DNA of 34,038 nt. It comes from Deltaproteobacteria bacterium (GTDB lineage: Bacteria > Desulfobacterota > Desulfomonilia > UBA1062). The notes under the pieces are model-generated. The model was given only the letters and a program-made list of their open reading frames with translations. It was not told the DNA's origin and searched no databases. Below are positions 16,404-27,556 of the stretch, piece by piece. The position numbers and the translations under genes are program-made. Position 1 is the first letter of the stretch. Every line of letters starts with the position of its first letter. The stretch is taken from positions 1 through 34,038 of the forward strand of contig JAHDOV010000051.1 of NCBI GenBank assembly GCA_018434685.1, written 5' to 3'.

Positions 16404-16463
16404 TTGACATGAAATGAACTAACAGTTAAAAAAATACCAAGAGTAGCAAAAATACTCTTGGTA
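16404..16463 (+). promoter_or_regulatory. acd1 promoter with three operator-like palindromes
   Basis: A -35 TTGACA (16404-16409) and a -10 TAAAAA (16427-16432) are 17 bp apart. AACTAACAGTT (16417-16427) sits in the spacer. A perfect 11-bp inverted repeat follows: TACCAAGAGTA (16435-16445) and TACTCTTGGTA (16453-16463). All three fit WACY-N3-RGTW, the same palindrome found five times between tetR and acd2. The placement over the promoter and start of transcription suggests repression by the TetR protein encoded at 17803-18468. Confidence 0.65.
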
Positions 16464-16538
16464 ATGAATACATTTGCCGCGCAGACGTGCCCGCCCGGGC
16501 AGGGATATCATGCAGGCATGGACAAGGAGAGTGCACTC

Positions 16539-17702
16539 ATGATGGACTTCACGCTGACGGAAGAACAGCGGATGCTCAAAGAGACGGTAGCGAATTTCGC
16601 AGCCCGGGAGATTCAGCCCATAGCCGAAGAGATAGACCGGACAGATACCTGGCCTGAGGGCATGTGGAAGAAACTCGGCGACCTCGGGGTGTTGGGGGTA
16701 ACGATCGAGGGCGCCTACGGAGGGGTGGGGCTCGACATACTTTCGGGCGCCCTGGTGGGTGAAGAGCTGGCCAAGATCTCACCCTCCATCTCGATATCGT
16801 ATGGTGCCCATGCAAATCTCTGCTGCAACAACATCAGGTTGAACGGCACCGAGGAGCAGAAGCACAGATATCTTCCCCGGATGTGTTCGGGCGATCAGGT
16901 GGGAGCCCTGGGGCTTACCGAGCCGAATGCCGGCTCGGATGCAGTAAGCATCCAGACCACGGCCCGCAGGGAAGGGGATCGGTTTGTCGTCAATGGCAGC
17001 AAGACGTTCATAACCAATGGCGTAATCGCCGACACCATCATCCTGTATGCAAAGACCGACAAGTCTGCAGGTGCACGGGGGATCACCGCTTTTATCCTCG
17101 AGAAGGGATTCCCGGGGTTCTCGGTCTCCCGGAAACTCGACAAGGTGGGGAACCGGGGGTCTGAGACCGGGGAACTGGTCATGGAAGACTGCATCATCCC
17201 TCAAGAGAATGTTCTCGGGCAGGTCAACGGCGGGGTCGCTGTGATGATGCGGGGGCTCGATATCGAGCGCGCATTCCTGTCCACCTATGCCCTCGGTATG
17301 GCGGAGGGGGCCTTTGCAGAGGCCCTCAAATATGCCCGGGAGCGGGTCCAGTTCGGCAAGCCCATCGCCTCCTTTCAGCTGATCCAGGCAAAGCTTGCCG
17401 ATATGTGGACCTTGATCGAGGCCGCCCGCCTGCTCAGTTACAAGGCCTGTATACTGGCTGATGACGCGGAAAAAGGCGGCAAGGGCACCGAGTTGCACAA
17501 GGTGACTGCAGCGGCAGTCCTCTTCGTGGGAGAGATGGCCGACAAGGTCTGCACCGAGGCCATCCAGATTCACGGGGGCTATGGCTACTGCATGGAATAT
17601 CCGGTCCAGCGGTTCTGGCGCGATGCCAAGGTGGCAACCATCGGCGCCGGTACCTCGGAGATGCGCAGGCTGATCCTGGCGAGGGAACTGCTCGCCGGCT
17701 AG
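16539..17702 (+). CDS. Acyl-CoA dehydrogenase, isovaleryl-CoA dehydrogenase type
   Basis: This 387-residue flavoprotein would oxidise a branched short acyl-CoA, probably isovaleryl-CoA, to its 2-enoyl-CoA and pass electrons to electron-transfer flavoprotein. It has LTEPNAGSD and FITNG near the FAD, and RVQFGKPIASFQ. The catalytic base pattern is that of isovaleryl-CoA dehydrogenase: Glu243 in GLDIER, with Ala370 in IGAGTSEMRR where medium-chain enzymes have Glu. Start is the first ATG of ATGATGGAC, 9 nt after AAGGAG; an upstream in-frame ATG lacks a ribosome site. It is a separate unit from the acd2 operon, facing the end of tetR, but shares operator-like sites with it. Confidence 0.9.
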   Translation: MMDFTLTEEQRMLKETVANFAAREIQPIAEEIDRTDTWPEGMWKKLGDLGVLGVTIEGAYGGVGLDILSGALVGEELAKISPSISISYGAHANLCCNNIRLNGTEEQKHRYLPRMCSGDQVGALGLTEPNAGSDAVSIQTTARREGDRFVVNGSKTFITNGVIADTIILYAKTDKSAGARGITAFILEKGFPGFSVSRKLDKVGNRGSETGELVMEDCIIPQENVLGQVNGGVAVMMRGLDIERAFLSTYALGMAEGAFAEALKYARERVQFGKPIASFQLIQAKLADMWTLIEAARLLSYKACILADDAEKGGKGTELHKVTAAAVLFVGEMADKVCTEAIQIHGGYGYCMEYPVQRFWRDAKVATIGAGTSEMRRLILARELLAG

Positions 17703-17802
17703 TGAGCAGGGCGTGTCTTGAAGGTCGCAGCGGCACGCTGACGGGTGCAGGACCGTGCTATGGGTAAAGGCATGAGAGCCACTGCCACGCGACAGGCAAG
17801 AA

Positions 17803-18468
17803 TTACTTCAGGACGATAGCGTCGATTATGAGCTTTTCCGCCAGGCTGAGCGTGGACTTCAGGTACTTTCTCTCCTGGTCGTGTTTGGTGGCTTTCATAT
17901 CCATTACCTGGGTTATCCCGACAAACAGGCCCCAGAGGATGTCGGAAAGGGCAAAGCTGTCGATATCCCTGAGGAGTCCCTGGGTGATTGCCGCTTGAAG
18001 AACCCGCCTCGCGAGCTCGAAGTCGTATTTGCCCCTGTCGCTTATGGCGGCCCGGGTGTCCGGGTTGAGTTCATTGATGAGGTCCTGGTGCTGAAAGAAC
18101 GTGTGCGCCACCCGGAGCGAGTCCGGCGCAGTTTCATAGCTGCGGATAAAGATGTTGAACAAATCTTTCACCAGGTCGTTGCCGCTTGTATATTTCCTGT
18201 CGGTCAATTTCTTCTCGATGCGCTCGAACTGCCTGCCGAATTCCTCGAGAAACGGCAGCATGAGCGAAGAGTAGAGCTCGTCCTTGGTTTTGAAGTACTG
18301 ATAGATGGTCGGTTTGCTGATCTGGGCCTCGAGCGCGATCTCGTCCATGGTCGTCTTGAGGTAGCCCTTGGAGAAAAAGACCTGCTTTGCAGCGGCGAGA
18401 ATACTCTGAATGCGCTGATCCTTCTCTCTCTTCTTTCTCTCGCGTATTGCCTGCTGGTGTTTCTGCAT
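17803..18468 (-). CDS. TetR/AcrR-family transcriptional regulator
   Basis: This 221-residue regulator has an N-terminal helix-turn-helix (about 18-66, with FFSKGYLKTTMDEIALEAQ and SKPTIYQYFKTKDEL) and a helical ligand-binding domain of usual TetR length. It is divergent from acd2 and convergent with acd1. The site list suggests a ligand such as an acyl-CoA from the encoded pathway; this is inference. Start ATG follows AGAGGTG; a TTG one codon earlier is also possible. Its promoter has a perfect -10 TATAAT and its -35 lies inside an operator palindrome, so it probably represses itself. Confidence 0.92.
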   Translation of the reverse strand: MQKHQQAIRERKKREKDQRIQSILAAAKQVFFSKGYLKTTMDEIALEAQISKPTIYQYFKTKDELYSSLMLPFLEEFGRQFERIEKKLTDRKYTSGNDLVKDLFNIFIRSYETAPDSLRVAHTFFQHQDLINELNPDTRAAISDRGKYDFELARRVLQAAITQGLLRDIDSFALSDILWGLFVGITQVMDMKATKHDQERKYLKSTLSLAEKLIIDAIVLK

Positions 18469-18504
18469 CAATCACCTCTGTATATGGATACTTCCCGGTG
18501 AGAA

Positions 18505-18664
18505 ATTATACCGAAAGACAAATATGTTACTAATAGTAAATATTAAACCAATGGTAGGGAATGTCAAGGGGGAATCGGTCTGCCTGCCGGCAATGATTGT
18601 GCTTGACAGGCAGTTTACCAGTAGTTTAATAATTACTTGCAGTAGTTAAATTAACTAATAGTAA
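18505..18664. promoter_or_regulatory. Divergent tetR/acd2 promoters with five palindromic sites
   Basis: The tetR -10 TATAAT is at 18505-18510 (minus strand). The acd2 promoter is TTGACA (18603-18608), 16 bp, TTTAAT (18625-18630). Five sites fit WACY-N3-RGTW: in TTACTAATAGTAA (18527-18539, over the tetR -35), in AAACCAATGGTAG (18545-18557), in TTACCAGTAGTTT (18615-18627, in the acd2 spacer), in TTACTTGCAGTAG (18633-18645) and in TAACTAATAGTAA (18652-18664). The first contains a perfect 13-mer palindrome around its centre. A leader of roughly 145 nt separates the start of acd2 transcription from its ribosome site. Confidence 0.7.
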
Positions 18665-18784: not shown

Positions 18785-19936
18785 ATGGATTTTTCCCTTA
18801 CGGATGAACAGAAGATGTTCAGAGAAACCATCTACCGCTACGGCAGAGATGAAATCGCCCCTCTCTGCGGAGAAGCCGATCTCAAGGGCGAGTTCAGCTT
18901 TGAGATATGGAACAGGCTCGGGGCTATGGGGATCTTGGGGTTGCCTTTTCCTGAAGAACTGGGGGGATCGGCGGCTGATATCGTCACCTGCTGCCTTGCC
19001 GGTGAGGCCCTGGGGCATGCAGGGGTGGATGGCGGCAGCCTGCTGGCCTGGGGGGCCCATACCTATCTGTGTGCCTGCAATATCTTCGATTTCGGCACCG
19101 AAGAGCAGAAGAAAAGGTATGTGCCGAAGCTTGCATCGGGCGAGTGGATCGGGTGCATGGGGCTCACCGAGCCCGGCTCGGGTTCCGATGCAGCCTCCAT
19201 GCGGACGACAGCGGTGAAAAAGGGGGACCGCTATATCTTAAACGGTTCGAAGACCTTTATCACCAATGCCCCGGTGGCAGACGTCTTCGTGGTATTCGCA
19301 AACCTCGACCGCTCGAGAAAGCACGAGGGGATCACTGCCTTCATCATCGAGAAAGGCACGCCCGGGCTGACGACCGGCAAGCCCTTCCATAAGATGGGGT
19401 GCAAGTGCTCGGCCACCTCCGAGGTCTTTCTCGAAGACTGCGAGATCCCGCTCGAGAATGTGCTGGGCGGTGAGGGGGGAGGCTGGTTCATCGCGCTCAG
19501 CGGTGTCGAGTGGGACCGCTGCACGCTGCTGTCTCCCATGCTCGGCTCCGCGCTGAACAACCTCGATTCCTGCGCCCGCTATGCCAACGAACGGCAGCAG
19601 TTCGGTCGTCCCATCAGGAGCTTCCAGGCTATCCAGCACCGGATTGCCGACATGAAGGTCTTCATCGAGGCCGCGCGGCTCGCCATTTACCGGGTTGCCT
19701 CTGCCAAGGACAACGGCACGATGCTCAATCCACTCCAGGCCGCTGTCAGCAAGGTCTATGCAGGTGACCGTGGCTTTGAGATGGCATCCGAGGCCGTGCA
19801 GGTCTTCGGCGGCTACGGCTTCATGCAGGAGTACCCGGTTGAGAGAAATTTCAGGGATTCGAAACTGGCTGCCATCGGCGGGGGAACATCGGATATCATG
19901 CGCATGATCGTGTCCAGGATCATGCTGATGCAATAG
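18785..19936 (+). CDS. Acyl-CoA dehydrogenase with atypical catalytic position
   Basis: This 383-residue acyl-CoA dehydrogenase has all fold and FAD motifs: [39 protein letters not shown] and [18 protein letters not shown]. The helix-G position that is Glu in isovaleryl-CoA dehydrogenase is Asp244 (GVEWDR), and the position of the medium-chain-type Glu is Gly366 (IGGGTSD). So neither usual Glu base is present; Asp244 could substitute, or the base lies elsewhere. Substrate is unknown. ATG is placed after AGGAGGT at 4 nt; a GTG two codons upstream overlaps the ribosome site. It is the first gene of the operon that ends with the AtuA-family gene. Confidence 0.9.
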
Positions 19937-19955: not shown

Positions 19956-21116
19956 ATGGATTACACACTTTCTGAACAGGAAAAGCAGATGCAGCAGGAC
20001 CTGGCTGCCTTCTGTCGGGCACACATCGCCCCCCGGGCGAAAGAGCTCGACCAGTCCTCCCGGGAAGCGTCAACGGTTCTCATACGGGAAAATCTCGGGA
20101 TGCTTGCCGAAGGCAGCTGGCTGAGCGCCGGACACGAGGGGGATTCGATCGACCTGATCAAAGTATACCTGGCCGGCGAGGAGCTTGCAAAGGCATGTCC
20201 CGCAACGTTCCTGAGCGCACGTGCGAGCACGTTCCTGTGTGCCGGTGCGCTGAGGCTGTTCGGAACGGCCGGGCAGAAGCAGCGCCATGTCCCGGGCCTC
20301 ATGCAGGCTGATGCGGTGGGTGCCCTTGCCTATTCCGAAGAACAGGCCGGATCGGACCTCGGCGCACTCCGCGCCCGCGCATGGAGGGAAGGCGATACCT
20401 GGGTGCTCAGCGGCGTGAAGGATGTCGTGGTAAATGCACCCATGGCGGATGTGCTGCTCGTGCTCGCCTATATCACGCCGGCTGCCGGGCCCGAGGGTGG
20501 CATGGGCCTGTTCATCATTGAAAAGGGTGCCCCGGGGTTGTCTGTGGGCACCCCGGTCGAGACCATGGGGCTGCGAGGGGTTCCCATCGCGCCGGTAAAG
20601 ATGAACAACTGCCCGGCATCAGGGCTCCTGGGAGGCGAACCCGGTCACGGGTATGAGCAGATCATGCGCCTGCTGGAGCTGGGTACTGTGGGCGTTGCCG
20701 CCATGTGTGTCGGGATAGGGAGCGCCTGCATGGAGTGTTCTACGCGCCATGCCAAGAGCAGGATGGCTTTCGGCAGGCAGATCGGCAAATTTCAGGACGT
20801 CGGGTTCAAGCTGGCGGACATGTTCACCTTCAATGACCTGGGGCGGATGCTCGCGCTGAGGGCTGCCCAGGCCCTGAACACCGGCGAACAGGGTGCCGGG
20901 GTCATGGCGGCATGCGCGAAGCTCTTCACCAGCGAGGCAGTGACCAGGATCGCAGGCTGGGGCATGCAGATCTTCGCAGGGCATGGATATCTCGCCGGCA
21001 GTGATATGGAGCGACTCTACCGCGATGCGCGGTTCGGAGAAATCTGTGAGGGCACCTCGGAGATGCAGCGGTCCCTGATCGCGCGCAATGAGCTCGACCG
21101 GTTTCTGCTGGCTTAA
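19956..21116 (+). CDS. Acyl-CoA dehydrogenase, medium-chain-type base
   Basis: This 386-residue dehydrogenase is more divergent than its two neighbours. The TEPxAGSD motif reads SEEQAGSD, and the FGGxG segment reads FAGHGYLAGSDMERLYRDAR. It keeps the general-base Glu365 in ICEGTSEMQR, the medium/short-chain arrangement, while the helix-G position is Gly243 (LELGTVG). So it should be active on an acyl-CoA different from that of the isovaleryl-type enzyme; substrate is unknown. The N-terminus has only weak similarity to the neighbours. It starts 19 bp after acd2, with AAGGGGGAG before ATG. Confidence 0.88.
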   Translation: MDYTLSEQEKQMQQDLAAFCRAHIAPRAKELDQSSREASTVLIRENLGMLAEGSWLSAGHEGDSIDLIKVYLAGEELAKACPATFLSARASTFLCAGALRLFGTAGQKQRHVPGLMQADAVGALAYSEEQAGSDLGALRARAWREGDTWVLSGVKDVVVNAPMADVLLVLAYITPAAGPEGGMGLFIIEKGAPGLSVGTPVETMGLRGVPIAPVKMNNCPASGLLGGEPGHGYEQIMRLLELGTVGVAAMCVGIGSACMECSTRHAKSRMAFGRQIGKFQDVGFKLADMFTFNDLGRMLALRAAQALNTGEQGAGVMAACAKLFTSEAVTRIAGWGMQIFAGHGYLAGSDMERLYRDARFGEICEGTSEMQRSLIARNELDRFLLA

Positions 21117-21197: not shown

Positions 21198-22814
21198 ATG
21201 GATGTCATAGAAACCAGAATCGATACCAATTCACAAGAATACCGGGAGAATTACGAGGCAATGGAAGCCCTGGTGGAGGATCTCGGAAAGGAATTGAAGA
21301 GAGCGCGTCAGGAGCGTTCACCAAAGGCCGTGGACCGTCTCGCCTCCCAGGGCAAACTGCCGGCGGGGAAAAAGCTCGATCTGCTCCTCGACAGGAACAG
21401 CCCCTTCCTGGAGATTGCACCGCTGGCCGCCCGGGGCATGTATGACGGCAAGGTTCATGCGGCCGGTCTCGTGGCCGGTATCGGTGTGGTCGAGGGTCGC
21501 GAGGTGCTGGTAATTGTCAGCGATGCCACGATCAAGGGCGGTTCGGTCTACCCCATGGGGGTCAAAAAGAACCTGCGCTGTCAGACCATCTGCATGGAAA
21601 ACCATCTGCCGATGATCAACATGCTCGATTCTGCAGGGGCCTATCTGCCCCTCCAGTCGGAGATCTTTCCGGACATCGACGACGGCGGCAGGATCTTCTA
21701 CAATCAGGCCATCATCTCCAAGATGGGGATACCGCAGATAACGGCGGTCATGGGACTCTGTACGGCCGGTGGGGCCTATGTGCCCGCCATGTCGGAGGAG
21801 GTCGTTCACGTCAAGGGCACCGGCGCGATATTCCTGGGGGGTCCTCCGCTGGTCAAGGCGGCAACCGGGGAAGAGGTGACCGCGGATCAGCTCGGTGGCG
21901 CCGAGGTACACTGCATCGAGTCCGGGGTGTCGGACCATTTCGCGGAAGACGATGCCCATGCCATCTCCATACTTCGCAAGATCGTGAGCAATCTTCCGAA
22001 GAATGAGAAGGCGCGCCTGTCCATGCGGCAACCTGCACCGCCTGCGTACGATCCCAAAGAGATCTACGGGATCGTGAGCAAGGATTTGAAAAAGCCCTAT
22101 GACTGCAGGGAAATAATCGCCCGCATGGTGGACAGGAGCGAGTTCCTGGAGTTCAAGGAACTCTACGGGCCGACGCTCGTGTGCGGCTTTGCCTACATCC
22201 ACGGCTACCCGGTGGGTATCCTGGGAAACAACGGCATCCTGTTCTCGGACAGCTCGCTCAAGGCCACCCAGTTTATCCAGCTCTGCGACCGGCGCAAGAT
22301 CCCGCTGCTTTTCCTCCAGAACATCAACGGCTATATCATCGGCAGGGAGTATGAGCGGCGCGGCATCACCAAGGACGGGCACAAGATGGTCAATGCGGTC
22401 TCCACCTGTACGGTCCCGAAATTTACCGTCATCGTGGGTGCGTCCTTCGGGGCGGGAAACTACGGGATGTGCGGCAGGGCCTATTCACCCCGGTTCCTCT
22501 GGATGTGGCCCAATGCCCAGATCGGGGTCATGGGCGGTGAGCAGGCCGCAGGGGTGCTCATAACCCTGAAGAACGACCAGAACGCCAAGGCCGGTCTCCC
22601 GCCCATGAGCGAGGAGGAGGCCGAGGCCATCCGGGTGCCGATCGTGGAGGCAGCGAAAAAAGAGGGAGATGCCTACTACAGCACCGCCAATATCTGGGAT
22701 GACGGGATTCTCGACCCTGCACACACCCGGGATGTCCTGGGACTGGCGATCTCTGCCTGCCTGAATGCGCCCATCCGGGATGATGTCCTGGGGTACGGGA
22801 TATTCAGGATGTAG
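21198..22814 (+). CDS. Acyl-CoA carboxylase carboxyltransferase (beta) subunit, MCC/GCC type
   Basis: This 538-residue protein transfers CO2 from biotin to an enoyl-CoA. The order of motifs matches 3-methylcrotonyl-CoA and geranyl-CoA carboxylase beta subunits: GGSVYPMGVKKNLRCQ, DSAGAYLPLQ, RIFYNQ, MGLCTAGGAYVPAMSEE, GPPLVKAATGEEV, GNNGILFSDSS, FLQNINGYIIG, GAGNYGMCGRAYSPRFLWMWP and the C-terminal WDDGILDPAHTRDVL. The segment before RIFYNQ reads DIDDGG, where 3-methylcrotonyl enzymes I recall have D-H-F-G; the Phe is missing (Gly163). Together with the AtuA neighbour this could mean a longer isoprenoid-type substrate. Ribosome site is AAGGTGG. The BC and carrier subunits follow. Confidence 0.92.
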   Translation: MDVIETRIDTNSQEYRENYEAMEALVEDLGKELKRARQERSPKAVDRLASQGKLPAGKKLDLLLDRNSPFLEIAPLAARGMYDGKVHAAGLVAGIGVVEGREVLVIVSDATIKGGSVYPMGVKKNLRCQTICMENHLPMINMLDSAGAYLPLQSEIFPDIDDGGRIFYNQAIISKMGIPQITAVMGLCTAGGAYVPAMSEEVVHVKGTGAIFLGGPPLVKAATGEEVTADQLGGAEVHCIESGVSDHFAEDDAHAISILRKIVSNLPKNEKARLSMRQPAPPAYDPKEIYGIVSKDLKKPYDCREIIARMVDRSEFLEFKELYGPTLVCGFAYIHGYPVGILGNNGILFSDSSLKATQFIQLCDRRKIPLLFLQNINGYIIGREYERRGITKDGHKMVNAVSTCTVPKFTVIVGASFGAGNYGMCGRAYSPRFLWMWPNAQIGVMGGEQAAGVLITLKNDQNAKAGLPPMSEEEAEAIRVPIVEAAKKEGDAYYSTANIWDDGILDPAHTRDVLGLAISACLNAPIRDDVLGYGIFRM

Positions 22815-22885: not shown

Positions 22886-24373
22886 ATGTTTGAAAAGTTA
22901 CTCATAGCAAACCGTGGCGAAATAGCCCTGCGCGTAATCACCACATGCCGGGAAATGGGCATACAGACCGTGGCGGTCTATTCCGATGCCGACCGGGACG
23001 CGCTCCATGTCCTCGAGGCCGATGAGGCAGTCTGCCTCGGTCCTTCGGAGCCTACCGAGAGCTACCTGAACGTGGACAAGATCATCGGCGCGGCCAGGAT
23101 GACCGGGGCTCAGGCCGTTCACCCCGGCTACGGTTTCCTGGCGGAGAACGCTGCATTCGCCGAGCAATGCGAGCAGGAAGGCCTCGTGTTCGTCGGTCCC
23201 CCGTCGCGGGTTATTCGGAATCTCGGGGACAAGACCGAGGCGCGCCGGACCATGATCAAGGGCGGGGTGCCCGTGATCCCCGGCATGATGCAGACCGAGG
23301 GTGATCCCGATGTGCTGGCCAGGGAAGCCGGTAATATCGGCTATCCGGTCCTCATAAAGGCGGCTGCCGGCGGCGGCGGCAAGGGCATGCGGGTCGTCCG
23401 GTCCCCCCAGGAGTTCAGGGAGGCCTGCATCTCGGCGTCCAGCGAGGCCCGTAGCGCCTTCGGCAATGGGGCCATTTACCTGGAAAAGTATCTCGAACAG
23501 CCCCGGCATATCGAGTTTCAGATCCTGGCAGACACGAAGGGCACGGTGATTCACCTGCTGGAGCGGGAGTGCTCCATCCAGAGGAGACACCAGAAGATCA
23601 TCGAGGAAACCCCCTCGCCGGCACTTTCGCCGGCGCTGAGAGCAGCCATGGGCGAGGCGGCGGTCGCAGCAGCCAGGGCTGCCGGATACGTGAATGCCGG
23701 GACCGTGGAATTCCTGCTCGATGCCAGCGGCGATTTTTATTTCCTGGAGGTGAACACCAGACTCCAGGTAGAGCACCCCATCACGGAGATGATCACGGGC
23801 ATCGATCTGGTTCGCCAGCAGATCGAGATTGCGGCAGGAAATCCCCTGAGATTCTCCCAGGGAGATATCGTGGGCCGGGGCCATGCCATCGAGTGCCGCA
23901 TCTATGCAGAGGATCCGCTCAACGGCTTTTTCCCGTCCCCGGGCAGGATCCTCTTCGTCAAGGAGCCGCGGGGACCCGGCATCAGGAACGACTGCGGGAT
24001 CTATTCGGGCTACACCGTGCCGGTGGAGTACGACCCCATCCTCTCGAAGCTCATCACTCATGCCGGGACGAGGCAGGAGTGTATCCACCGCATGATCAGG
24101 GCACTGAAAGACTACGTGATCCTCGGCGTCCTGACCCCCATCCCCTTCCTCGTCGATGTCCTGTCATCCGAGGCCTTCATGGAGGGCGAGACCTACACCG
24201 ATTTCATCGACACCCACTTTGGCAGCTGGAATCCCTCGTTGAACGACATAAACGCGGTGGGGCTGGCCTACGTGGTGGACCAGCTCGCAAACAGAGCGGC
24301 ACCGGCTGCGCCCGGCACTGCGGACGGTGAGACGTATTCGCCGTGGAAAACGCTCGGTAATTTCAGGCCCTGA
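22886..24373 (+). CDS. Biotin carboxylase subunit of acyl-CoA carboxylase
   Basis: This 495-residue ATP-grasp enzyme carboxylates biotin using ATP and bicarbonate. It has MFEKLLIANRGEIALRV, HPGYGFLAENA, the glycine loop GGGGKGMRVV, ERECSIQRRHQKIIEE, and the active-site FLEVNTRLQVEHPITEM, then a complete C-terminal lobe ending FGSWNPSL. The biotin carrier domain that is fused to BC in 3-methylcrotonyl- and geranyl-CoA carboxylase alpha subunits is absent and is encoded by the next gene. The ATG at 22886 gives the family N-terminus with AGGGGAAC upstream; an earlier in-frame ATG in the gap is rejected. The last ~35 residues are a poorly conserved tail. Confidence 0.94.
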   Translation: MFEKLLIANRGEIALRVITTCREMGIQTVAVYSDADRDALHVLEADEAVCLGPSEPTESYLNVDKIIGAARMTGAQAVHPGYGFLAENAAFAEQCEQEGLVFVGPPSRVIRNLGDKTEARRTMIKGGVPVIPGMMQTEGDPDVLAREAGNIGYPVLIKAAAGGGGKGMRVVRSPQEFREACISASSEARSAFGNGAIYLEKYLEQPRHIEFQILADTKGTVIHLLERECSIQRRHQKIIEETPSPALSPALRAAMGEAAVAAARAAGYVNAGTVEFLLDASGDFYFLEVNTRLQVEHPITEMITGIDLVRQQIEIAAGNPLRFSQGDIVGRGHAIECRIYAEDPLNGFFPSPGRILFVKEPRGPGIRNDCGIYSGYTVPVEYDPILSKLITHAGTRQECIHRMIRALKDYVILGVLTPIPFLVDVLSSEAFMEGETYTDFIDTHFGSWNPSLNDINAVGLAYVVDQLANRAAPAAPGTADGETYSPWKTLGNFRP

Positions 24374-24416
24374 GCGATGCGCCCGGCAGAGATGCGAACG
24401 ACAATGGAGGCATGAA

Positions 24417-24959
24417 ATGGACTATAATCTGAGAATAGGCGGGCTCACCCGCGGGATTGTATGCGATATCAGGGATGACGGCACACTCTCGGCCAGGGTG
24501 GACGGGGAGCTGTTCGAAGTCCGCTACCGTGTGATCTCGTCAAACCAGATCCACCTGGAGATCGACGGCGCCGGGTACAATGTCTATCTGGCCGATGATC
24601 CCACGGGCAGGATTATCAACCTGGGGGGGACGTCATACCTGGTGCAGGATGCTGACAGTCTCGCCCAGGGCAGGTCACGCAGGAGAGGCCCCCTGGAAAT
24701 TCCCCAGGAGGTCACGCCCCCCATGCCCTCGGTGGTGGTGCGCATCCTGGTGGCGGCCGGCGACCCGGTGGAAAAGGGACAGGGGGTCGTGGTGGTATCG
24801 GCCATGAAGATGGAGACGACGCTCATGGCGCCCTTTGGCGGCCGGGTGCACAGCATCAACGTCAAGGAAGGCGACAAGGTCATGCCCGGCCAGATTCTCG
24901 TGGATATCGAAAAGCAGGAGGAGGAAGTCACTGCCTGCCAGGAAGAGCTGTCCCGGTAA
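24417..24959 (+). CDS. Biotin carboxyl carrier protein with linker domain
   Basis: This 180-residue protein carries biotin between BC and the carboxyltransferase. The C-terminal biotinyl domain (about 98-170) has PPMPSVVVRILVAAGDPVEKG and the biotinylation site AMKMET with Lys131. The first ~80 residues are beta-rich (MDYNLRIGGLTRG to TSYLVQDA) and look like the linker or BT-type domain that in fused alpha subunits lies between BC and the carrier. So this gene seems to be the missing second half of a split alpha subunit (495 + 180 residues). Ribosome site GGAGG is 6 nt before ATG; longer frames start inside the BC gene. Confidence 0.93.
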   Translation: MDYNLRIGGLTRGIVCDIRDDGTLSARVDGELFEVRYRVISSNQIHLEIDGAGYNVYLADDPTGRIINLGGTSYLVQDADSLAQGRSRRRGPLEIPQEVTPPMPSVVVRILVAAGDPVEKGQGVVVVSAMKMETTLMAPFGGRVHSINVKEGDKVMPGQILVDIEKQEEEVTACQEELSR

Positions 24960-24994: not shown

Positions 24995-25765
24995 ATGAAC
25001 GAAGATCATGTGCTCTACCAGGTGAAAGACAGCGTGGCGTATGTCACAATCAATCGTGAAAAGAACAGGAATGCAATCACCCCCGAGGCGGTCAGCCTGT
25101 TCCTGGAGTATCTGGACAGGGCCGAGGCTGACGGGGATGTGCGGGCGGTCATCATCACCGGTGCCGGGGACAGGGCTTTCTGCACCGGGGCCCAGCTCGG
25201 AGACGGCATGTCTGCGGACGGCAAAAAGGTGTTCGGCGATTATGCGCGGCTCCTCAAACGCATTGCCTCGTTCCCGAAACCGACCGTTGCCCGGGTCAGG
25301 GGCTTCTGCCTCGCAGGCGGCATGGGCTTCATGCTTGCCTGCGACATCGTCATTGCCAGTGAAGACTCCATGTTCGGCACGCCCGAGGTCAATGTCGGCC
25401 TGTGGCCCATGATGATCGGTGCCCTGATCTTCCGGAACGTTCCCCGGAAGAAGGCCATGGAAATGATCATGCTCGGCGAACGTATCAATGCCCCGGATGC
25501 CCTGTCCATGGGTCTGATCACCAAGGTGGTGCCGGCAGACTCTCTGGACGCAGCGGTGGAGTCTGTCCTGAAGAGCCTTGCCGCAAAGAGTCCTATCGGT
25601 ATGCGGATCGGCAAGGAGGCCTTCCACGCCTCAGCCGGCCTGTCCCTGGAAGAGGCCCTGGACTTCCTCAGCCTCAAACTGGTGGAGGTCGCCGGTACGG
25701 AAGATGCCCGGGAAGGCATCACGGCATTCATCGAGAAACGCGCCCCGAGATTTACGGGAAGGTAA
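24995..25765 (+). CDS. Enoyl-CoA hydratase-family protein, methylglutaconyl/isohexenylglutaconyl type
   Basis: This 256-residue crotonase probably hydrates the 3-methylglutaconyl-type product of the carboxylase. It has FCTGAQL and LAGGMGFMLACDIVIAS around the oxyanion hole. One catalytic Glu is kept (Glu131 in GTPEVNVG), but the partner Glu of rat enoyl-CoA hydratase (in GGCEL) is Gly111. A missing first Glu with the segment GLWPMMIGALI resembles Pseudomonas LiuC-type hydratases as I recall them. The length and C-terminal FIEKRAPRF are typical. It starts 35 bp after the carrier gene, with AAAGGAG upstream, and 12 bp before the AtuA-family gene. Confidence 0.86.
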   Translation: MNEDHVLYQVKDSVAYVTINREKNRNAITPEAVSLFLEYLDRAEADGDVRAVIITGAGDRAFCTGAQLGDGMSADGKKVFGDYARLLKRIASFPKPTVARVRGFCLAGGMGFMLACDIVIASEDSMFGTPEVNVGLWPMMIGALIFRNVPRKKAMEMIMLGERINAPDALSMGLITKVVPADSLDAAVESVLKSLAAKSPIGMRIGKEAFHASAGLSLEEALDFLSLKLVEVAGTEDAREGITAFIEKRAPRFTGR

Positions 25766-25777
25766 AGGAGGGTTTGA

Positions 25778-27556
25778 ATGAAGGGGAGAGATCTGAAGAA
25801 CGACGACCGGGTCGTCATCGCAAACTGCAGCGGATTTTTCGGAGATCGCTTCAGTGCTGCTAAAGAAATGGTGCAGGGGGGACCCATAGATTTCCTCACC
25901 GGCGATTACCTGGCGGAACTGACCATGGCGATCCTCTTTCGTGCCAAGAGCAAGGACCCGGGAGGCGGGTACGTCTCGACCTTTCTCAAGCAGATGGAAC
26001 AGATCATGGGGGAATGCCTCGACAGAAAGATCCGCGTGGTATCGAATGCGGGCGGGCTCAATCCCAGGGGCCTGGCTGCAGAACTGGAACGCATAGCCGG
26101 GGAACTGGGCCTGCACCCGAACATAGCCTATATTGAAGGGGACGATCTCATGGCCCGGCTGGGCGATCTCCAGGCAGCTGGTGAGCCTCTCGTCCACATG
26201 GACAAGGGGATTGCCCTGAAGGATTCCAAGGCGTTCCCGATCTCAGCGAATGCCTACCTGGGCTGCTGGGGCATTGTCAAGGCACTGGAAGAGGGGGCTG
26301 ATATCGTGGTGGGCGGACGCATTGCCGATGCCTCGCTCGTGGTGGGCCCGGCCGCCTGGGCCTTCGGCTGGCAGCGCACCGAATGGGACAGGCTGGCAGG
26401 CGCCACGACCGCAGGGCACATCATCGAATGCGGCGCCCAGGCCACCGGAGGGAACTATTCGTTCATCGACGAGGTGCCGAGCTTCAGGAACGTGGGCTTC
26501 CCCATTGCCGAAATCGAAGAAGACGGGTCGTTCACGATCACCAAGCATCCGGGCACGGGCGGGCTTGTCTCGGTCGATACAATCAAGGCACAGCTCATCT
26601 ACGAGATCGGCGGCGTGCGCTACCTGACCCCGGATCTCGTTGCGCGCTTCGATACCATCGGGGTTTCCCAGGAAGGGCCCGACCGGGTGAGGGTAACCGG
26701 GGTACAGGGTGAACCGCCCACTGACACCACCAAGGTGTGCATAAACACGCTTGGCGGCTATCGTAACTCCATGACCATCATGCTCACCGGCCTCGATATC
26801 GAGAAGAAGGCCGCTATCTTGGAGGATGCACTCTTTGACGCGCTCGGCGGCAAGGAGCAGTTCGAGCAGGTCAATGTGCAGCTCATCCGGTCCGACAAGG
26901 AAGACCCGCTCACCAACGAGGAGGCCTTTGCCTACCTGCGCATCTCGGTGATCGATCCGAATCCGAAAAAGGTGGGCCTGGTGTCGTCAAAGATCGTTGA
27001 GCTCGCCCTTGCCAATATCCCGGGTTTTGCGGGAACGGCCCCGCCATCAAAGGGGACACCGGCAATCATGTACTGGCCTGCGCTCGTTTCCAGCAGGCAC
27101 ATCCGGCAGAAGGTCATCGTGGGCGGGAAGGAATTCACCCTGGAGTGCGTATCCCCGGTCGCCGGATACCGCAGCCCGGAAGCCCTTGCCGTTGAGCTTC
27201 CCCCGGTACCGCAGGGCAGGACCGTGCGGGTGCCGCTGGGCCGGGTATTTGCCGCCCGTTCCGGCGACAAGGGGGGCAACGCCAATCTTGGGGTATGGTC
27301 CAAGACGCCGGAGGCCTATGCCTTCCTGAGGGAATTCCTGACCACCGAGAGGCTGCAGGTTCTGCTCAACGACCTGAAGGACTTCGAGATCGAGCGCTGC
27401 GAGCTGCCGAATCTGCTGGCCGTGAATTTCTATATCAGGGGGATCCTGGGCGAGGGTGCAGCGGCATCGATGAGGCTCGATGCGCAGGCCAAGACCCTTG
27501 GCGAGTATCTTAGGGCCAGGATCGTGGATATGCCGGCCTCCATCGTGCCGGGCTGA
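25778..27556 (+). CDS. AtuA-family protein (DUF1446 plus C-terminal AtuA-like domain)
   Basis: This 592-residue protein is the last gene of the operon. Residues ~10-455 form the DUF1446 region: VIANCSGFFGDR, DFLTGDYLAELTM, VSNAGGLNPRGLA, GADIVVGGRIADASLVVGP, CGAQATGGNY and TIKAQLIYEIGG. Residues ~485-590 form the second AtuA domain with RVFAARSGDKGGNANLGVW. AtuA is needed for citronellol/geraniol use in Pseudomonas but its reaction is unknown; homologues accompany branched acyl-CoA carboxylases. Ribosome site AAAGGAGG is 6 nt from ATG. It ends 5 bp from the converging pepD, leaving no space for a separate terminator. Confidence 0.88.
   Translation: MKGRDLKNDDRVVIANCSGFFGDRFSAAKEMVQGGPIDFLTGDYLAELTMAILFRAKSKDPGGGYVSTFLKQMEQIMGECLDRKIRVVSNAGGLNPRGLAAELERIAGELGLHPNIAYIEGDDLMARLGDLQAAGEPLVHMDKGIALKDSKAFPISANAYLGCWGIVKALEEGADIVVGGRIADASLVVGPAAWAFGWQRTEWDRLAGATTAGHIIECGAQATGGNYSFIDEVPSFRNVGFPIAEIEEDGSFTITKHPGTGGLVSVDTIKAQLIYEIGGVRYLTPDLVARFDTIGVSQEGPDRVRVTGVQGEPPTDTTKVCINTLGGYRNSMTIMLTGLDIEKKAAILEDALFDALGGKEQFEQVNVQLIRSDKEDPLTNEEAFAYLRISVIDPNPKKVGLVSSKIVELALANIPGFAGTAPPSKGTPAIMYWPALVSSRHIRQKVIVGGKEFTLECVSPVAGYRSPEALAVELPPVPQGRTVRVPLGRVFAARSGDKGGNANLGVWSKTPEAYAFLREFLTTERLQVLLNDLKDFEIERCELPNLLAVNFYIRGILGEGAAASMRLDAQAKTLGEYLRARIVDMPASIVPG

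Follow-up and report, generated by a model that had tools for sequence, protein, structure and literature searches.

BkaR (Rv2506 / MSMEG_4718) is an autoregulated mycobacterial TetR repressor of branched-chain keto-acid genes, and it acts at two palindromes in a shared promoter region, with a dimer on each (PMC3920632). The accD1-accA1 carboxylase, encoded in the operon divergent from the BkaR gene, is a methylcrotonyl-CoA carboxylase (PMC4347857). The regulators AtuR and RdmA, associated with the atu/dmg acyl-CoA clusters of Pseudomonas, are likewise TetR repressors, with two inverted repeats near the -10 region (PMC9973270), and LiuQ has been reported as confined to betaproteobacteria (PMC5343134). 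For uncultured Syntrophaceae-type bacteria, a search of the literature found no described regulator of isovalerate or leucine breakdown, and no description of the regulator considered here.

The window, meaning the whole 34,038-nucleotide stretch of DNA that was analysed, contains a gene for a TetR-family protein flanked by acyl-CoA dehydrogenase genes, with eight copies of one palindrome in the adjoining intergenic regions (Table 1). These palindromes are very probably the operators of the TetR protein encoded between them, which would be an autoregulated repressor of tetR, of acd1 and of the acd2-acd3-carboxylase-hydratase-AtuA operon, most likely released by one of the pathway's CoA thioesters. 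The arrangement is genuine, and relatives have it too, yet gene switches of this kind are commonplace in bacteria. It is of interest because it supplies an operator code that can be tested, along with a probable switch for isovalerate or leucine breakdown in uncultured Syntrophaceae-type bacteria, and the code permits targets to be predicted in other genomes, such as those of Spirochaetes with a different acyl-CoA pathway.

Table 1. Proposed operators, -35 boxes and genes of the locus, in window coordinates
Feature	Positions	Strand	Basis or comment
-35 box TTGACA, acd1 promoter	16404-16409	+	read in sequence; 7 bp before copy 1
Operator copy 1, AACTAACAGTT	16417-16427		acd1 -35/-10 spacer; pattern match
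Operator copy 2, TACCAAGAGTA	16435-16445		18 bp after copy 1; pattern match
Operator copy 3, TACTCTTGGTA	16453-16463		18 bp after copy 2; exact reverse complement of copy 2
acd1, isovaleryl-CoA dehydrogenase-like	16539-17702	+	Pfam acyl-CoA dehydrogenase domains; best PDB match isovaleryl-CoA dehydrogenase 4kto, 395 bits
tetR, TetR-family regulator, 221 aa	17803-18468	-	TetR_N E=1e-16; predicted fold; presumed binder of all eight sites
Operator copy 4, TACTAATAGTA	18528-18538		tetR promoter, start-site side; pattern match
Operator copy 5, AACCAATGGTA	18546-18556		tetR promoter, -35/-10 spacer; pattern match
-35 box TTGACA, tetR promoter	18562-18567	-	read in sequence
-35 box TTGACA, acd2 operon promoter	18603-18608	+	read in sequence
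Operator copy 6, TACCAGTAGTT	18616-18626		acd2 operon -35/-10 spacer; pattern match
Operator copy 7, TACTTGCAGTA	18634-18644		18 bp after copy 6; pattern match
Operator copy 8, AACTAATAGTA	18653-18663		19 bp after copy 7; pattern match
acd2, acyl-CoA dehydrogenase, first gene of operon	18785-19936	+	profile match; 82-89% identical adjoining tetR in seven other family genomes
acd3, acyl-CoA dehydrogenase	19956-21116	+	Pfam
Methylcrotonyl-CoA carboxylase beta subunit	21198-22814	+	657 bits to 3u9r MCC beta vs 463 to geranyl-CoA carboxylase
Biotin carboxylase subunit	22886-24373	+	Pfam + NCBIfam
Biotin carboxyl carrier protein	24414-24959	+	Pfam + NCBIfam
Enoyl-CoA hydratase family, presumed methylglutaconyl-CoA hydratase	24995-25765	+	Pfam; role inferred from operon
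AtuA-family protein	25778-27556	+	PF07287 E=6e-166

Proposed operators, promoters and genes of the locus

The 11-bp palindrome WACY-N3-RGTW occurs exactly eight times in the 34-kb window, in each of the places where the earlier note had put it, and a search of the whole window found no further copy outside the two intergenic regions, upstream of acd1 and between tetR and acd2. Measured from centre to centre, the copies follow a register of 18 and 18 bp in the acd1 group, 18 bp in the tetR group, and 18 and 19 bp in the acd2 group. Dinucleotide shuffles of both regions averaged 0.22 sites and peaked at 4, and none of the 20,000 trials reached eight sites or had two pairs at 18/19 bp. The signal is the clustering and register of the copies, not the single 11-mers. 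Because the 11-mer alone matches 501 times in the 4.29-Mb genome, an isolated copy carries no weight; perfect-core tandem pairs at 18-20 bp, in contrast, number five in the genome, all five of them at this locus. The earlier note's statement that spacer bases differ between copies needs correcting for copies 2 and 3, which as exact reverse complements are not independent in their spacer bases. Together these two copies make up an inverted repeat (16435-16463) whose 11-bp arms match perfectly around a 7-bp loop, and a similar exact pair is present in one of the Spirochaetes loci, L048.

Each of the three TTGACA boxes is followed 5-7 bp later by the start of a palindrome, which lies within the -35/-10 spacer, and this palindrome is followed in all three promoters by a 7-bp AT-rich linker at the expected place of the -10 element and then by the next palindrome. 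The layout said to be shared by the acd1 and acd2 promoters is therefore firm for the TTGACA boxes and the sites and softer for the -10 elements, since the -10 hexamers of all three promoters are weak and depart from the consensus. Outside Spirochaetes, nearly every pair at an orthologous locus has TTGAC ahead of it, at a distance of 5-8 bp from the first site or of 25-29 bp from a site that would then overlap the start point, a placement that suits a repressor that excludes polymerase. The gap between tetR and acd2, about 316 bp, tells against the proposed reading in that it is longer than 200 bp, the range of greatest reliability for divergent TetR targets (PMC3511530), although two separate operator groups cover it.

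The enzyme set of the locus makes leucine or isovalerate breakdown the most likely pathway, and the targets had been aptly named, in that acd1 is nearest to isovaleryl-CoA dehydrogenases among PDB entries and the carboxylase is nearest to methylcrotonyl-CoA carboxylase. In acd2 an Asp stands where isovaleryl-CoA dehydrogenases have a catalytic Glu (GVEWDR vs GLDxER), and a Gly occupies the other usual position of the catalytic Glu. The alpha subunit of methylcrotonyl-CoA carboxylase is usually a fused protein, whereas here its biotin carboxylase and carrier parts have a gene each (22886-24959). The AtuA-family gene forms the end of the methylcrotonyl-CoA carboxylase operon, a position kept in relatives.

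The regulator possesses a TetR_N helix-turn-helix domain (PF00440, 60.8 bits against a cut-off of 24, residues 24-68). Its fold model (pLDDT 86.9) is predicted to adopt the all-helical TetR fold, matching many TetR-family chains with Z-scores of 16-18.5 across some 185 residues. Close and distant orthologues show almost no change in the recognition-helix stretch KPTIYQYFKTKD. Foldseek placed 3whb and 5gp9 highest, that is, FadR of Bacillus and other acyl-CoA-responsive TetR proteins. Naming a ligand from such fold matches was rejected, as the Z-scores are tied across many unrelated TetR-family proteins.

Distribution of the palindromes and the regulator

Among 24 genomes of the family, 8 have an orthologue of the TetR protein, the window's own genome included, and 16 have none. 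The orthologues in the seven other genomes share 62-84% identity (62-100% with the own genome counted), and in all eight the palindromes adjoin tetR, between tetR and acd2. The eight genomes that have the regulator together contain 21 perfect tandem pairs, 20 of which fall at the tetR locus, and the 16 genomes without it contain 9 such pairs in total, as compared to 20 for a mirrored control pattern. Two of the family genomes retain a carboxylase operon 77-80% identical to that of the window in company with a different TetR gene. In G018, whose TetR is unrelated (recognition helix TGAVYFYF), no motif was found in 13.7 kb, and in G023 none was found in 10.2 kb of a contig that starts inside the carboxylase gene and leaves the operon promoter outside; because G023 does not include the operon start, G018 is the cleaner negative control. 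Since both genomes keep the operon with another TetR and without the motif, the motif follows this regulator and not the operon. The proposal of a single TetR regulator acting on three promoters is thus supported, within limits, by motifs that adjoin tetR wherever an orthologue is present in the family and that are absent from the carboxylase-operon contigs of two genomes with a different TetR. In two relatives an unrelated TetR gene follows the same carboxylase operon (L075 11354-12031 and L076 9217-9921, 62% identical to one another), an apparent replacement of the regulator.

Distant orthologues, 34-57% identical and including those of Spirochaetes, also carry tandem palindromes. Their pairs are spaced by 18-19 bp in Desulfobacteraceae and genomes related to them, as against 20 bp in four Spirochaetes; pairs at 20 bp with one mismatch occur in two further genomes, and one locus (L016), with a homologue 43% identical, has a single site and no pair. 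The neighbours of these orthologues differ, being a mutase with an enoyl-CoA hydratase, an HpaB-type gene, or a butyryl-CoA:acetate CoA-transferase-like gene. In three Spirochaetes loci (L046 5812-8085, L047 3869-5547 and L048 5884-8286) the 20-bp operator pair precedes either tetR or the butyryl-CoA:acetate CoA-transferase-like gene, and the regulator seems there to have switched pathway. It is reasonably probable, on balance, that tandem WACY-N3-RGTW is the conserved operator code of an undescribed TetR subfamily that spans Desulfobacterota-type bacteria and Spirochaetes while its targets change, from the leucine/isovalerate operon in the window's family to mutase or HpaB-type neighbours elsewhere and the butyryl-CoA:acetate CoA-transferase-like gene in Spirochaetes, with pair spacing shifting from 18-19 to 20 bp by lineage.

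The earlier note spoke of a regulon, a term that fits in a local sense only. By pattern searches of the genome, as distinct from matrix scoring, the regulon appears to be local and not genome-wide, with tetR and, wherever the regulator is present in the family (eight genomes), the acd2 operon as its predicted targets. In just 2 of 24 family genomes, the window's own and G016, acd1 appears to be a further target. A wider regulon, sought through one-mismatch pairs at 18 and 19 bp, was rejected, the four extra matches being scattered and below the level of the mirrored control. Single extended sites of the form TWACYNNNRGTWA number seven outside the locus, of which four lie inside an ORF of at least 250 aa or at its margin, one lies between convergent ORFs, one is about 210 bp upstream of a DUF6242-type gene, and one is in a short ORF without a Pfam match; Pfam comparison of the neighbours of two of these sites (L084 and L087) found no acyl-CoA gene. 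The one other close relative of acd1 in the family, in G016 (L078 5169-6323), adjoins tetR and has operators upstream. The window's TetR is 84% identical to that of G016, which belongs to another genus, versus 72% to that of G001 from the same genus, and this pattern, together with the restriction of acd1 to the window's genome and G016, suggests transfer or differential loss of the block.

Mode of action and alternative readings

In the proposed mechanism each palindrome would bind one TetR dimer. Every promoter has its first site in the -35/-10 spacer and its next one close to the start site, 18-19 bp further along, whereby two or three adjacent dimers, perhaps binding cooperatively, would enclose the -10 region and deny RNA polymerase access to the promoters of tetR, of acd1 (isovaleryl-CoA dehydrogenase) and of the operon for the acd2 dehydrogenase and methylcrotonyl-CoA carboxylase. 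A CoA thioester from isovalerate or leucine breakdown probably relieves the repression, as is usual for TetR proteins of this sort. The operator of TetR is 15 bp and those of SimR and DesT are 17 bp, and QacR-type operators bind two overlapping dimers on one element of 22-32 bp (PMC4150764). When 53 sites were symmetrised, the half-sites fell at ±2 to ±5, with a preference for T on the left and A on the right out to ±7. One dimer per palindrome is favoured because the resulting site, about 15 bp wide, is the size of a single-dimer TetR operator, and the palindrome centres, 18-20 bp apart, would probably place separate dimers side by side.

A different geometry, in which the operator is an everted pair, RGTW-N7-WACY, and one dimer spans neighbouring palindromes with half-sites 11 bp apart, draws on the fit of that distance to the 37-38 Å helix spacing of QacR and CprB (PMC4150764) and on the pairing of sites almost everywhere. 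It is quite unlikely, because inner and outer half-sites make the same base choice (Fisher p 0.85 and 0.46) and pair spacing varies among 18, 19 and 20 bp while the N3 within each palindrome is constant in the sites studied. The sign of regulation might also be other than proposed, the protein being an activator, or repressing only when ligand-bound, with sites that serve feedback rather than substrate induction. In Myxococcus, AibR acts as a repressor once it has bound isovaleryl-CoA (PMC6018408; PMC9131029), and the fold model has AibR among its structural matches (Z 16.3-16.6). That match is tied with dozens of TetR-family proteins and hence is not specific, the targets here degrade isovaleryl-CoA whereas the AibR operon makes it, and the overlap of the sites with the -35/-10 spacer argues against activation, so that a sign of this kind is judged unlikely.

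That the palindromes belong to an unlinked regulator of acyl-CoA genes, with tetR merely one of its targets, gains something from the fact that a palindrome alone does not identify its protein and that many TetR-type proteins share a genome (20 matches in the window's own). Such a regulator is nevertheless very improbable: tandem pairs accompany this TetR in different genera and as far as Spirochaetes, despite wholly different neighbours, they are missing where the operon persists with another TetR, and no perfect ones occur elsewhere in the genome. Chance AT-rich inverted repeats or RNA hairpins in intergenic DNA, which the 7-nt-loop repeat of copies 2 and 3 and the genomic abundance of the 11-mer might bring to mind, retain a practically negligible probability, because composition-matched shuffles never reach the count or the register and because the sites are conserved at orthologous loci of diverged sequence, a comparative result that already refutes them. 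The preferred reading accordingly remains repression by the TetR protein encoded between the sites.

Comparison with described regulators

Although FadR of Bacillus is a structural match to the model, its identity is about 20%, and the NCBIfam FadR equivalog model gives the window's protein 42.3 bits against a cut-off of 200. AibR of Myxococcus xanthus is, like the protein studied here, of the TetR family, and its ligand is isovaleryl-CoA (PMC6018408); it differs in controlling isovaleryl-CoA biosynthesis and in repressing when ligand-bound, and its sequence similarity is weak (29.5 bits). LiuQ, also of the TetR family, regulates branched-chain amino acid use, the same class of pathway (PMC5343134). 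The likeness to AtuR and RdmA lies in a TetR gene that adjoins an atu-type cluster including an AtuA protein. Their sites, AGCAAGCGCTTGG and CCAAGCGCTTGCT, are 13-bp repeats 40-42 bp apart, whereas the core here is another one with a spacing of 18-19 bp, and the window's carboxylase resembles methylcrotonyl-CoA carboxylase rather than geranyl-CoA carboxylase. Closest in function and layout is BkaR, a TetR repressor of itself and of a methylcrotonyl-CoA carboxylase operon, a role that is predicted from sequence for the window's regulator. The BkaR operator, GTTA(N)T(N4)A(N)TAAC (PMC3920632), differs from the WACY-N3-RGTW of all copies here, and similarity between the two proteins is confined to the N-terminal stretch 6-71, the DNA-binding end (4g12/6yj2, 30.4 bits). 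Because operator and protein sequence both differ, the window's regulator is not a BkaR, for all that the two systems resemble one another in what they control and how their genes are laid out.
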